Made by a program: the position numbers and the translations under genes
In this document: positions 1,211 through 6,713 of the stretch, piece by piece
Position numbering within the stretch: position 1 is the stretch's first letter
How the letters are laid out: each line of letters begins with the position of its first letter
The notes under the pieces: generated by a model
What the model saw: the letters and a program-made list of their open reading frames with translations, nothing else
Database searches by the model: none
Told to the model about the DNA's origin: nothing
Assembly: GCF_022760995.1 (NCBI RefSeq)
Contig: NZ_JAKWJO010000002.1
Location: forward strand, 186,001 to 250,000
Length of the DNA stretch: 64,000 nt
From: Dyella sedimenti
GTDB lineage: Bacteria > Pseudomonadota > Gammaproteobacteria > Xanthomonadales > Rhodanobacteraceae
Direction of reading: 5' to 3'

Positions 1211-1628
1211 AAGTGGGTCGTATCCGGCCTGCATGGTCCACGCCCGCAGTAACGGACGAAGCGAAACCACCATCATACCGGATGCATCCGCTCGCCCCTG
1301 CCGGCGGCGCCCTGTTCCAGCTCCGGCTGCCGTTGCACCTACAGCCGCCATCGCCATGCGCTTTCGCCAGCGAGCGCCTTTCACGGCTACGCGCCCCAAA
1401 ACCCGCCTCCTATAACTGAAATCAGGCGCTGCGACGCAGCGCCCGAGGGGAAATCGGTAGCGGTACTTACCTTGCGGCCGGCGGGTTCTACACCGGCGCC
1501 GGCAAGGCTTCGCGGCCACCCGTGGCGTCCAACGACCTTCGAAGCATGCGCGGACTGAAAGGTTTGCCGCGCAACGGGATTCGCTGTCGCCACGGCCCGG
1601 CCTGGACATGTCCATGGGAGGAACGCGC
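1211..1628. other. 418-bp divergent intergenic region with structured leader
   Basis: I find no convincing gene between rdgC and the TonB receptor. A TATAAC box lies at 1411-1416 on the plus strand. Just after it is a 9-bp inverted repeat (GGCGCTGCG/CGCAGCGCC, 1425-1443), and further on are two complementary GC-rich blocks (about 1470-1483 and 1490-1505). If the TATAAC box is a -10, the receptor mRNA has a leader of roughly 200 nt with stable structure. I looked for B12-box and other metabolite-riboswitch signatures and did not see them. Confidence 0.35.
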
Positions 1629-4600
1629 GTGACGAAAAACCTGACAAGGCAAAGCCATATTCACCACAAACCAGCGCGGCGTACGCCGCTGGCGCTGGCG
1701 CTGGCAATAACGCGCGGGGGGGGGGTACCACTAGGATTGGCGTTGGCGCTGGCCAGTACGGCGGGCATGGCGCAGTCCAATATCACCGGTAGCATTTTCG
1801 GCCAGGTGGCCGGCCATGCCGACGACGCCAGCGTGGTCATCCAGAACACGGACACCGGCCTGACCCGCACCACTGCGGTCGACAAATCGGGCCGCTACCG
1901 GTTCTCCTCGCTGCCGGTCGGCCGCTACAAGGTCACCTTGCAAGGCGCCGACGGCGCGCCGATCGGCACGCGCGACAACGTTGAATTGAACATCGCCGGC
2001 GGCACCGAGGTGTCGTTCGACGCCAGCGCCGCGGCCCAGGCGCAGAACCTGGGTACCGTCATCGTCACCGCCAATGCGTTGCCGGCCATCGACGTTTCCA
2101 CCATCGACACGCGAACGGCGCTGACCTCGGAGCAACTCGCCAAGTTGCCCATGGGGGAGCGCGGCGTGGCCGCGGCGGCCATGCTGGCACCCGGCGTGGT
2201 GGCCAATGCCAGCTACGGCGTGCCTAGTTTCGGCGGCGCGGCCTCCTCGGAGAATGCGTATTTCATCAATGGCTACGCGGTAACCAATCCACTCACGGCC
2301 ATCGGCTTTTCCACGCTGCCGTTCGATGCGATCGACCAGGAACAGGTGCTGACGGGTGGCTATGGGGCGGAGTTCGGCCGCTCCACCGGCGGCGTGATCA
2401 ACCTCATCACCAAGCGCGGCGGCAACCAGTGGAAGGGCGGCGTCTACACCATATGGGAACCGCAGGCGCTGCGTGCCAACCCGCGCAACAACTATTACCC
2501 CAACACCGGGGCCTATCCCGCCAACGACCCGGACCCGAGCCACCGCACCGACAGCACCCTGTACCAGTACCGCGACAAGAACCAGTACTGGAAATCCACC
2601 TATGGCGCCTACGCCAGCGGCCCGCTGATCAAGGACCGCCTGTTCTTCTATCTCGACGCGGAAATGAACCGGCGCGAGGGCACCAGTGTGGCGTCCTATG
2701 CCAACTCCTCGGCGGCAACCGCGCGCTTCGGCTGGAACGACTACAGCTACGAGATGCCGCGCTGGACTGGCAAGCTCGACTGGAACATCACCGACAACCA
2801 CCTGCTGGAACTGACCGGCGTTTCCGACAAGACCCAGTACTGGTCGGATCGCTCCACCTTCGACTACGGCAGCCTGAGCCACGGCGACAGCCAGACCGGC
2901 GGTGTCTATACCAAGAACGGCGGCGAGCTGTACGTCGGCAAGTACACCGGCTACCTGACCGACAATCTGACGGTGTCGGCGCTGTACGGCACGCAGAAGA
3001 TCAAGCATGTGGAAACGCCCGACGGCTACGATCCGAACTGCCCGTACATTTCCGCCTCGACCCAGTCGCAGGTGCCGGGGCTGGTCTACAACAGCTGCCA
3101 GACCGCGATCAGCTCCACCACCCTGATACCTGGCGCCAACGACTCCACCCATGGCTGGCGGCTGGACATCGAGTACCAGCTCGGTGACCACGACCTGCGG
3201 GTGGGCTACGACGCGCAGACCGCCAAGTCGTTCACCGGCTCCAGCTACGTCGGCGATTACGCCTGGGCCTACGGCCGCCAGACCAATCCGAACACACCGA
3301 TCAACAGCGGCCTGGGCGTGATCGGCTCGCCCGCATCGGCCGGTGGCTACGGTACCCAGGGCTATTACGTCTACAAGGCCTACAGCACGCGCAGCGCGGC
3401 GGTGAAAACCGAACAGGAGGCGCAGTACATCGAGGATCGCTGGCAGATCAACGAGCGCTGGCTCCTTTCGGTGGGCCTGCGCAACGAGCAGTTCAGCAAC
3501 TTCAACAAGAACGGCGAGGCCTATATCCGCCAGCGCCACCAGTTGGCGCCGCGCATCGGCGCCGCCTGGGACGTGTACGGCGACGCCAGCCTCAAGCTGT
3601 TCGCCAATGCCGGCCGCTACCATCTGGCCATTCCCAACAACGCGGCCACGCGCAGCATTTCCGGCTCGCTGATCACCAGCCAGTACTTCACCTATACCGG
3701 CGTGGACCCGGTGACCGGCGTACCTACCGGCCTGAACCCGATCGCGGTCAACCCGAACAGCCCGTACCTGTGCCCCAACGGCGGCGTGTCCTCCAACCTC
3801 GAATGCGGCCAGGCACCGGACCCTCGCACCGTGGCGGCCAAGAACATCCGTTCGCACTACCAGGACGAATACATCCTGGGCATGCAGCAGCGGCTCGGCG
3901 ACCGCTACAACTGGGGCGCCAAGCTGACTTATCGCAAGCTGCAAAGCGCCATCGACGACACCTGCGCCCAGGTGCTCGGTGGAAGCTGCATCGCCTTCAA
4001 CCCCGGCCAGGGCAATACCTTCGTGTTCCTCGAACCGGACGGCAGCTATCGCACCGAGTATTTCAGCAAGGAGCAGCTCGGCATGCCCGATCTCAAGCGC
4101 AAGTACTACGCGCTCGATCTCTACCTGGAGCGTCCGTTCGCCGACAAGTGGTACGGCAAGGTGGAATACACTTTATCGCGCAACTACGGCAACACCGAAG
4201 GCCAGCTCGCCTCCGACCTGGATACCGGCTCAGGCGGACAGGAAGACGTCGGTCGCACCCAGGACTGGGACCTGCCCCAGCTGATGGTCGGCGCCAACGG
4301 GCCGCTACCGAATCATCGCGCCCACCAGATCAAGGCGTTCGGCTACTACCAGCTGACCCCGGAATGGCGCTTCGGCACCACCTTGATCGCCGCCTCGGGC
4401 CGCCCGAAGAACTGCACCAGCTACTACCCCACCGCTGATGCCGGCCTATACAACGGCTCCTACTATTACTTCTGCGGACTAGCCGGATCGGGTACGGCCG
4501 TAGGTTCGTCGAACTACGTCGCGCCCTCGGCGGACTATCGCTTTTCACCACGCGGCTCGCAGGGCACCACGCCATGGACCTACCAGCTCAACCTCAATGT

Positions 4601-4802
4601 GGCCTACACGCCAGACTGGGCCGGGCTGAACCACAAGCTGACCCTTCAGGTCGACGCGATCAATGTGCTCAATCGCCAGACGCCGACGATGTACAACTGG
4701 CGTTATGCATCGAACCGCACCACGGTAAACCCGCTATACGGCCGCGAGCTGAACTACACCGACCCACGCTATTTCCGGCTTACCGCACGCTACGACTTCT
4801 GA
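1629..4802 (+). CDS. Oar-like TonB-dependent receptor
   Basis: This is an outer-membrane receptor of about 1057 aa. After an N-terminal export signal comes a carboxypeptidase-regulatory-like beta-sandwich (SNITGSIFGQVAG... with TGLTRTT), then the TonB-dependent plug (TVIVTANALPAIDVSTIDTRTALTSEQ region, GGYGAEFGRSTGGVINLITKRGG) and a long beta-barrel ending in ...RLTARYDF, with the terminal Phe used by the Bam machinery. The domain order fits the Oar-like receptors abundant in Xanthomonadales; the ligand is unknown. I choose GTG at 1629 because GGGAGGAA (1616-1623) sits directly upstream. In-frame ATGs at 1608 and 1614 lie before or within that ribosome site. A G10 tract (1716-1725) falls in the signal-peptide region, between two hydrophobic segments, and is discussed separately. 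No partner genes adjoin it. Confidence 0.88.
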   Translation: MTKNLTRQSHIHHKPARRTPLALALAITRGGGVPLGLALALASTAGMAQSNITGSIFGQVAGHADDASVVIQNTDTGLTRTTAVDKSGRYRFSSLPVGRYKVTLQGADGAPIGTRDNVELNIAGGTEVSFDASAAAQAQNLGTVIVTANALPAIDVSTIDTRTALTSEQLAKLPMGERGVAAAAMLAPGVVANASYGVPSFGGAASSENAYFINGYAVTNPLTAIGFSTLPFDAIDQEQVLTGGYGAEFGRSTGGVINLITKRGGNQWKGGVYTIWEPQALRANPRNNYYPNTGAYPANDPDPSHRTDSTLYQYRDKNQYWKSTYGAYASGPLIKDRLFFYLDAEMNRREGTSVASYANSSAATARFGWNDYSYEMPRWTGKLDWNITDNHLLELTGVSDKTQYWSDRSTFDYGSLSHGDSQTGGVYTKNGGELYVGKYTGYLTDNLTVSALYGTQKIKHVETPDGYDPNCPYISASTQSQVPGLVYNSCQTAISSTTLIPGANDSTHGWRLDIEYQLGDHDLRVGYDAQTAKSFTGSSYVGDYAWAYGRQTNPNTPINSGLGVIGSPASAGGYGTQGYYVYKAYSTRSAAVKTEQEAQYIEDRWQINERWLLSVGLRNEQFSNFNKNGEAYIRQRHQLAPRIGAAWDVYGDASLKLFANAGRYHLAIPNNAATRSISGSLITSQYFTYTGVDPVTGVPTGLNPIAVNPNSPYLCPNGGVSSNLECGQAPDPRTVAAKNIRSHYQDEYILGMQQRLGDRYNWGAKLTYRKLQSAIDDTCAQVLGGSCIAFNPGQGNTFVFLEPDGSYRTEYFSKEQLGMPDLKRKYYALDLYLERPFADKWYGKVEYTLSRNYGNTEGQLASDLDTGSGGQEDVGRTQDWDLPQLMVGANGPLPNHRAHQIKAFGYYQLTPEWRFGTTLIAASGRPKNCTSYYPTADAGLYNGSYYYFCGLAGSGTAVGSSNYVAPSADYRFSPRGSQGTTPWTYQLNLNVAYTPDWAGLNHKLTLQVDAINVLNRQTPTMYNWRYASNRTTVNPLYGRELNYTDPRYFRLTARYDF
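1716..1725 (+). repeat. poly-G (G10) tract inside receptor signal sequence
   Basis: Ten consecutive Gs occur in frame as GGG GGG GGG G(TA). Losing one G gives TAC CAC TAG, with a stop at 1732-1734. Gaining one gives a stop at 1790-1792. The tract therefore lies where slipped-strand mispairing would switch the receptor off. Confidence 0.85.
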
Positions 4803-4922: not shown

Positions 4923-4993
4923 TTGTAGGAGCGCACCTAGTGCGCGATCCATCCTGCCGCAATGTGGGTCGCGCACCAGGTGCGCTCCTACAA
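4923..4993. repeat. REP-like inverted repeat, copy 1
   Basis: Perfect 15-bp arms (TTGTAGGAGCGCACC at 4923-4937 and its complement at 4979-4993) enclose a further imperfect pairing of GTGCGCGA/TCGCGCAC. The element belongs to a family found at six places in the first 27.5 kb of the window, always between genes. Confidence 0.8.
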
Positions 4994-5021
4994 AAGCTCG
5001 CCACAAACGTCCTGGCGTGAC

Positions 5022-6326
5022 TCAAAGACCCATCGGGGTGCCGTCGACATAGCCCTCGAAGATATAGTCGTTGAGAAACTGGCGCCGCCAGAGCAATGCC
5101 CGATCCACCTTGCTCAATTCGGCCTCATCGCAGACGAGGTTCCATTGGTGACGAATGCCGGAAATCTGCGCCGCGATAAGTTCGCGAGCCTCTTGATCGG
5201 TGAGCAAGAAGTGACGTGCTGAGAGCCGGCAGATCTCTAATTGGCTGCGTTTATCATCACCGCTAATAAACATAGCCTGGTTGGCTTCACGCCCCATGCG
5301 AGACTGAGGGCAGATGTCGTACGCCGGTGTTAGCGTCAGATAGGCCCCATCCCAGAACGCGGCATGGTTCCGGGCATGATCATCGGTGTTTCCCGTCAGT
5401 ATGTTGAACACCATGCGACCGAACAGTTCGCGAAGCGTGGTCTGGGGGTCTGTAAACCGTGCCCGAATGATGTCGGCAAGTTCGCTGTAACTGGCATAGC
5501 GTGCCTCCATCTCGCTAAGACCAAGGATGGTGAGTGCCGATACCATGGAGCGACGCGTCCATCCCTTGTCCGTATGTTCGCGATCGAATCGGCGCACGAG
5601 CAGAACATCCTTGCCGCTCGCCTTTTTCAGATGTACCGGAGCCACATCCAGATTGGCGGCTTCTTTGGCGAGCCGCATAGCGATGAATTCGGCTTTCACG
5701 ACCGCGTAGGTATCGTTCGACGCGGAAAACTTGGCAATGTACTTGTCGCTTCCCTGCTGGATCAGCGCTTTTGGACGTGCCCCGCCAATGGAACTGCCAT
5801 GGTAGAGGGCTTTCTCGAGCGCCGGGGGAATGGGCTCCCCCCTGTCAACGCGCTCGGCGGCTTCCAACAGGTCTTCCAACGTCGCATTTTCCAGCTCACG
5901 AGGCTCGTACCGTTCCGGGGACTGCTGAAAATCCAGTGCGCCGATTCGGTCAGAGCCGGAGTAGAGCATGAAGGTCAGTTCGTCGAACTCGACATCGCGG
6001 GCCGCGTCGCCTCCGAGGCCGGTAAGTCGATTGATGATGACTCTGCGTCCCCAGGCGTCGGGTGAACCATCACGCAGACAGCTCGCCATATCGAGCGGAG
6101 CTTTGGGCGTGAACGCGCCACGTTGCAAAGGCAATTCCGGGGAGTAAATGGGGATAGCGGCGTCGCGCTCGAGGTAAGAGCGGCCGTAGTTGAAGACATA
6201 AATCCGGCCTTGACTCGCGATTCGGCCAGCCACCACCGGCTCCAGCGCACCGGGGAGCCATATCCAGACAAACGCTTCGGTAGCGGCGGCCGGTTGGCCG
6301 AAGATCGCCTTTTGATCAGAAGTCAT
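5022..6326 (-). CDS. hipA: HipA-type serine/threonine kinase toxin
   Basis: The 434-aa protein has the HipA_N domain (about residues 15-130) and the HipA kinase fold. Visible signatures are SSIGGARPKA (178-187), the Gly-rich/phosphorylation loop; NTDDHARNHA (313-322), the catalytic loop with Asp and Asn; and AYDICP (335-340), the metal-binding DFG-like motif. HipA kinases phosphorylate translation factors (glutamyl-tRNA synthetase in E. coli), which halts growth. The start overlaps the 3' end of the hipB-like antitoxin by 11 bp, so the two are co-transcribed. The pair is visibly less GC-rich than its neighbours, consistent with horizontal acquisition. All key residues are present, so the toxin looks functional. 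Confidence 0.9.
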   Translation of the reverse strand: MTSDQKAIFGQPAAATEAFVWIWLPGALEPVVAGRIASQGRIYVFNYGRSYLERDAAIPIYSPELPLQRGAFTPKAPLDMASCLRDGSPDAWGRRVIINRLTGLGGDAARDVEFDELTFMLYSGSDRIGALDFQQSPERYEPRELENATLEDLLEAAERVDRGEPIPPALEKALYHGSSIGGARPKALIQQGSDKYIAKFSASNDTYAVVKAEFIAMRLAKEAANLDVAPVHLKKASGKDVLLVRRFDREHTDKGWTRRSMVSALTILGLSEMEARYASYSELADIIRARFTDPQTTLRELFGRMVFNILTGNTDDHARNHAAFWDGAYLTLTPAYDICPQSRMGREANQAMFISGDDKRSQLEICRLSARHFLLTDQEARELIAAQISGIRHQWNLVCDEAELSKVDRALLWRRQFLNDYIFEGYVDGTPMGL

Positions 6327-6651
6327 CCTTTACCCCTGAGAGTGGGCGCCGAACTGATTGAGGCAGCAGCGCCAACTTGTCTTCCACCCTCTCGATTGCC
6401 GCAGTGACGCCAGCCGAATCCTGTAGGAACAGCGGAACGCCCACCAGAACGGCAGCCTCGAATGCCAGGCCGATCTCGACTTTCGCGCTCCCCTTTTCAA
6501 TGGATTGCATCGTGCCCCGGGAAATGCCAATCCTGGCCGCCAGATCGGCCTCCGACATCAGCCGCTGTTTGCGGGCCAAGCGAATCTGCGCCCCCAGCAG
6601 CTTGAGGGCGTCCATGGTGGCGCGGGAATAAGTACGTGGAATGGCAGGCAT
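6316..6651 (-). CDS. hipB: HipB-like XRE-family antitoxin/repressor
   Basis: The 111-aa protein has a helix-turn-helix (about residues 22-60; SEADLAARIGISRGTMQSIEKG) of the XRE/Cro type. It precedes hipA and overlaps it, the standard order antitoxin-toxin. I choose ATG at 6651 (MPAIPRTYS...) because the longer frame from 6681 would run through the palindromic operator. HipB proteins neutralise HipA by binding it and repress their own promoter through palindromes. The C-terminal 50 residues are typical of the longer HipB-like relatives rather than E. coli HipB. Confidence 0.85.
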   Translation of the reverse strand: MPAIPRTYSRATMDALKLLGAQIRLARKQRLMSEADLAARIGISRGTMQSIEKGSAKVEIGLAFEAAVLVGVPLFLQDSAGVTAAIERVEDKLALLPQSVRRPLSGVKDDF

Positions 6652-6660
6652 GACCGTCTC

Positions 6661-6713
6661 AATGGCTAATATAGCGACCATAAATGGCCTTTATGCCCGT
6701 TATATTAGCCATT
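6661..6713 (-). promoter_or_regulatory. nested palindromic operators of hipBA
   Basis: An outer perfect 13-bp inverted repeat (AATGGCTAATATA at 6661-6673 and its complement at 6701-6713) encloses an inner one (CATAAA/TTTATG, 6679-6695). On the minus strand the upstream arm contains TAATATAAC, which fits a -10 box. Binding of the HipB-like protein would therefore cover the promoter, the usual autoregulation of such modules. Confidence 0.7.

Follow-up and report, generated by a model that had tools for sequence, protein, structure and literature searches.

The receptor gene and its G10 tract

The window, that is, the whole stretch of DNA analysed here (64 kb, bases 186001-250000 of contig 12), belongs to a genome of 4.31 Mb assembled in 22 contigs. 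When named genomes were scanned with proteins, the closest were Dyella sp. C9, Frateuria sp. Soil773 and other members of Dyella and Rhodanobacter. A TonB-dependent receptor gene lies on its forward strand (Table 1). In a profile search the encoded protein scored above the cut-offs for PF25183, PF13620 and PF07715, giving the plug (PF07715) and barrel (PF25183) of such receptors with a CarboxypepD_reg domain (PF13620) in front; no PDB chain matched its sequence at E 0.001. The likely start codon is the GTG, on the basis of the upstream GGAGGA and of the alignment with Met1 of the nearest database protein, P0001. The signal peptide is probably cleaved after the Ala-Gln of its conserved closing motif. 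A promoter scan of the sequence found none.

Table 1. Features of the receptor locus, in window positions
Feature	Position	Strand	Details
Likely ribosome-binding site, GGAGGA	1617..1622	+	6-base spacer to GTG 1629; read from sequence
TonB-dependent receptor gene	1629..4802	+	1057 aa from GTG 1629; 1064 aa from ATG 1608
42-base block without counterpart in P0001, residues ITRGGGVPLGLALA	1707..1748	+	14-residue gap in BLASTP
G10 tract	1716..1725	+	in frame; where the basic part of the signal peptide meets the hydrophobic part
Hydrophobic core VPLGLALALA and conserved STAGMAQ closing the signal peptide	1725..1772	+	P0001 alignment, homologue N-termini, hydropathy
TAG, in frame after one G is lost	1732..1734	+	frame script
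TAG, in frame after one G is gained	1790..1792	+	frame script

Upstream of the receptor gene and divergent from it lies rdgC (PF04381; 293-1210, minus strand), a neighbour that is probably not conserved, since tblastn found no rdgC homologue in the receptor loci of 14 relatives. Past the receptor gene, an inverted repeat, TTGTAGGAGCGCACC...GGTGCGCTCCTACAA, occupies positions 4923-4994 and is REP-like by eye. It is followed on the minus strand (5022-6681) by a HipA-like gene (PF07804, PF13657) and, overlapping it, a small helix-turn-helix gene (PF01381), a pair which looks like a HipAB toxin-antitoxin system.

The tract is preceded by CGCGC and followed by TACC, and it is translated as three glycines, its last base opening a Val codon. 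A reading made earlier from the sequence only had described ten in-frame Gs in the signal-peptide region of a receptor of about 1057 aa, with a TAG brought into frame by the loss or the gain of a single G; the tract was confirmed from the sequence, and a frame script returned both stops at the same places. When tract lengths from 7 to 13 were run through the script, the full receptor frame was obtained with 7, 10 and 13 Gs, whereas lengths 9 and 12 stopped at the first TAG and lengths 8 and 11 at the second, leaving products of 41-61 residues counted from ATG 1608. This is the frame arithmetic of a translational phase-variable gene. Poly-G genes of this kind are recognised by at least nine Gs in the frame or promoter and by early closure of the frame when one unit is gained or lost; the tract has ten, and closure follows at both G9 and G11. 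Nine is also the poly-G cut-off of PhasomeIt (PMC5953494).

The 42-base block and the homologous loci

Among the best 120 of 2394 protein matches, the nearest was the metagenomic protein P0001 (1043 aa, 96% identity; one sequence from a cluster of 4), and the second best was only 77% identical. In BLASTP, P0001 shared the N-terminal part of the receptor minus 14 residues, which BLAST placed at the block that holds the tract; the ends of the block are uncertain by a few codons, given the flanking Leu-Ala repeats. The receptor thus exists in a form that has no tract. With the first 60 residues as query, P0001 was the sole match, and the piece 1608-1736, which stands for the truncated products, had no match, both in a protein database clustered at 90%, where close length variants could be hidden. 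Neither a second tract length nor a second isolate with the tract appeared in the database searches.

A homologous receptor N-terminus was found in 124 loci among the matches listed. One of them (L003) was set aside for having too little upstream DNA and identical ones were collapsed, resulting in 107 distinct loci, which were scanned over a span reaching about 300 bases upstream and 120 bases downstream of the point where the hydrophobic core begins. A G or C run of at least 8 was present in the signal peptide of none of these 107 loci, among the matches listed; two carried a run in the DNA ahead of the start codon (L049 at -170 and L054 at -145). The tract is therefore not kept among these relatives, and since neither these loci nor P0001 have it, a conserved phase-variable (contingency) locus was rejected. 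The sequence-only reading had itself proposed that switching would be refuted if all reads and all relatives had the same length or a non-G sequence here, and P0001 and the 107 distinct loci among the matches listed, none with the run, count in part against it.

Because the homologues and P0001 are devoid of the block, it would most simply be an insertion specific to this lineage and not a segment lost elsewhere. Its 14 codons (tested as 1704-1745) were rarer, judged by the usage of the receptor gene itself, than the codons in all 998 further 14-codon windows taken from that gene. A repeated element was not supported as its source: near-copies of the block were searched in this genome with two pieces, allowing up to 2 and 3 mismatches, and the other matches numbered 4 and 1, versus 8 and 6 for backward-pattern controls. 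A match of 19 out of 24 bases between stretches 48 bases apart (1689 and 1737), which was reached by 3 of 200 codon shuffles, only weakly suggests a tandem duplication of the hydrophobic core.

Export of the in-frame form was assessed from the spacing and hydropathy of the signal peptide. The Arg of the block stands 18 residues before the conserved Ala-Gln, and in 120 parsed loci among the matches listed (duplicates included, parsed with a rough pattern) this distance was 15-25 residues in 114, 14 in one and less than 10 in five, with a mode of 17. Mean hydropathy is 2.28 for the core VPLGLALALA, compared with 2.14 in P0001, 2.48 in L069 and 2.65 in L068. Given this ordinary spacing and core hydropathy, the in-frame form is predicted to be still exported, and tracts of 7, 10 or 13 Gs would alter only the number of glycines, at a place that is probably tolerant.

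Length changes would be harmless if the out-of-frame forms restarted at TTG 1737 or TTG 1743 and some receptor were made whatever the length. The stop of the G9 form adjoins the first of these codons, and an AGGA (1733-1736) lies 6 bases before the second. However, the product from 1743 would start with MALALASTAGMAQ, which has no basic residue, and its best 10-residue mean hydropathy is 1.48 (versus 2.28), a weak core; export of this product is unlikely on both counts, and we regard harmless variation as highly improbable.

G runs in the genome and in the genus

The tract is the sole G or C run of at least 8 in the 64 kb of the window on both strands. In 68 of 100 dinucleotide shuffles of the window, the count of overlapping G8 words equalled or exceeded the three observed, so the run is unremarkable under this null. 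In the whole genome, 33 overlapping G8 words belong to 22 runs, of which 13 are 8 long, seven are 9 and two are 10, the maximum, and by arithmetic these 33 words are about one ninth of what is extrapolated from the window shuffles. The second 10-mer of the genome is intergenic, its closest predicted genes being 77 and 270 bases away, and TAGGAGCGCACC directly adjoins it (L014, 1501-1510). An intragenic G10 is uncommon in this genome, is not beyond chance by the simple null, and is not part of a long tail of tracts.

Nor did a family of poly-G receptor genes emerge in this genome, the paralogues examined (L002-L006, a set in which L003 is cut short of its 5' end) having no G or C run of at least 8. 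Most of the 22 long runs fell outside any convincing gene by codon-usage gene calling, and several 8- or 9-base runs may fall inside genes or at their starts (L009, L018, L022, L028, L034, L038 and L232). One 9-base run (L228, 2001-2009) stands 2 bases ahead of a LysR-like regulator gene, and a MarR-like gene has another (L028, 1501-1509) in its opening codons, family names that may apply on a reading of the peptides by eye. Gene calling of this kind is coarse: for five of the 28 runs sampled in relatives it placed no gene within 800 bases, and the receptor itself received a poor score immediately 5' of the tract.

A run of at least 10 was present in 17 of 20 genomes of the genus. Only one of 28 such runs, drawn from eight same-genus genomes (a partial sample that leaves out G001, G004, G005, G007, G011, G013, G017 and G018), lay in a called gene frame by the rough codon-usage script. 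Two single-contig genomes hold long runs, mostly intergenic: G019, with G/C runs of up to 19 (L201, G019:C1:3742465-3742483), and G002, with nine runs of 10 to 13 (L204-L212), indicating that the genus can retain long runs of G. Overlapping G10 words numbered 2899 in G005 and 1815 in G018, both highly fragmented assemblies, and these look like poly-G sequencing artefacts.

Such artefact-like words, their cause being a presumption, give some weight to an assembly or sequencing error at our locus, in which the real tract would have another length, or the block itself would be an artefact and the gene would resemble P0001, which does not have it. Nevertheless, this assembly contains only two G10 words in 4.31 Mb, the sequence flanking the tract is unique on either side, and the given length keeps the 1057-aa frame open; an error seems improbable to us.

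A passive accident is a more serious alternative, which we hold to be possible but rather doubtful. The block would simply happen to hold a G run that, in a repair-proficient genome, mutates too rarely to matter; out-of-frame forms would be merely defective, the tract would decay and there would be no functional switch. Both mutS and mutL are present above the cut-offs, the tract is unique to this genome among the homologues in the matches listed, the genome has no long tail of tracts and the shuffles make the run unsurprising, all of which agree with an accident. Against it, the intergenic runs of 10 to 19 in complete same-genus genomes point to G runs that can persist and grow, and the gene is in frame at G10 although both neighbouring lengths close it.

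Possible switching and comparison with known systems

The explanation that we tentatively favour, while rating it somewhat short of probable, is that a lineage-specific insertion created a slippery G10 whose occasional gain or loss of a G would switch the receptor off, and whose reversal would switch it on. An insertion in this lineage would have brought the 42-base block with its tract into the signal peptide; the tract would at times gain or lose a G, by slippage at what we suppose to be a useful rate; a one-G change would close the frame and is predicted to turn the receptor off; and the reverse change would restore it. A change by three Gs would alter the glycine count only. Phase variation under selection is a possible outcome. 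The switching rate may be low, since MutS and MutL should lower slippage. In its favour are the frame arithmetic, the 14-residue gap in P0001, the lack of a run in the signal peptides of the 107 loci among the matches listed, the rare codons of the block, the Arg to Ala-Gln spacing, the core hydropathy, and a length that passes the PhasomeIt cut-off and belongs to the hpuA ON class. Against it, a single tract length is known, mutS and mutL are present, the shuffles make the run unsurprising, the genome has no set of poly-G genes (its runs end at 10, and the second 10-mer is intergenic) and P0001 is tract-less.

The slipped-strand switching proposed in the sequence-only reading is partly supported. 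Its geometry holds, the frame being open at 7, 10 and 13 Gs and closed at the lengths between, with a tract of ten that passes the cut-off of nine; it has been weakened by the homologues, none of the 107 loci among the matches listed carrying a run in the signal peptide and a 96%-identical protein having no block. No result spoke for or against the evasion of phage or antibodies which that reading had suggested. A bolder form of the favoured explanation, which we think unlikely, would see here a contingency locus caught at birth. The insertion would have split the hydrophobic core, setting a G10 exactly where the basic part gives way to the hydrophobic one and a varying number of glycines is tolerated, and a fixed receptor gene would have become an ON/OFF switch in a repair-proficient Dyella relative.

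If the tract varies, the Dyella group would have in this gene a candidate for a phase-variable TonB receptor, outside the host-adapted pathogens where such receptors are best known, and P0001 would represent the tract-less state, making the origin of a phase-variable gene directly studiable. If it is invariant, the locus would be a caution that an in-frame poly-G alone is not evidence of phase variation. No phase-variable TonB receptor of Dyella or Xanthomonas was named in the open-access titles and abstract openings searched, and for Dyella together with phase variation the open-access literature searched yielded one paper, which was unrelated.

The receptor has the same domain order (CarboxypepD_reg, plug and barrel) as Oar-like TonB-dependent receptors, and we presume a likeness to Myxococcus Oar (PMC6434023).

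The haemoglobin receptor genes hgpA, hgpB and hgpC of Haemophilus influenzae are described as carrying CCAA repeats in frame that produce ON-OFF switching (PMC11475388). The Dyella gene resembles them in having a repeat within the reading frame. In the hgp genes the repeat is a tetranucleotide and switching was demonstrated, whereas the Dyella repeat is of G and its switching is a prediction; moreover, several hgp paralogues have the repeat, in contrast to the Dyella paralogues (L002-L006, with L003 devoid of its 5' end), none of which has a G or C run of at least 8.

The phase-variable haemoglobin-receptor genes hpuA and hmbR of Neisseria meningitidis share with the Dyella gene a poly-G inside the frame of a TonB-dependent uptake gene. 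For hpuA and hmbR, tract lengths vary among isolates and expression was checked, whereas the Dyella receptor is known with a single tract length, from a single genome, and P0001 is tract-less. As described, hpuA encodes the lipoprotein partner of HpuB and not a receptor barrel as in Dyella, and it is ON at tract lengths of 4, 7, 10 and so on (PMC3786947). On that description, the G10 of the Dyella receptor, for which the frame predicts ON at 7, 10 and 13, falls in the hpuA ON class.
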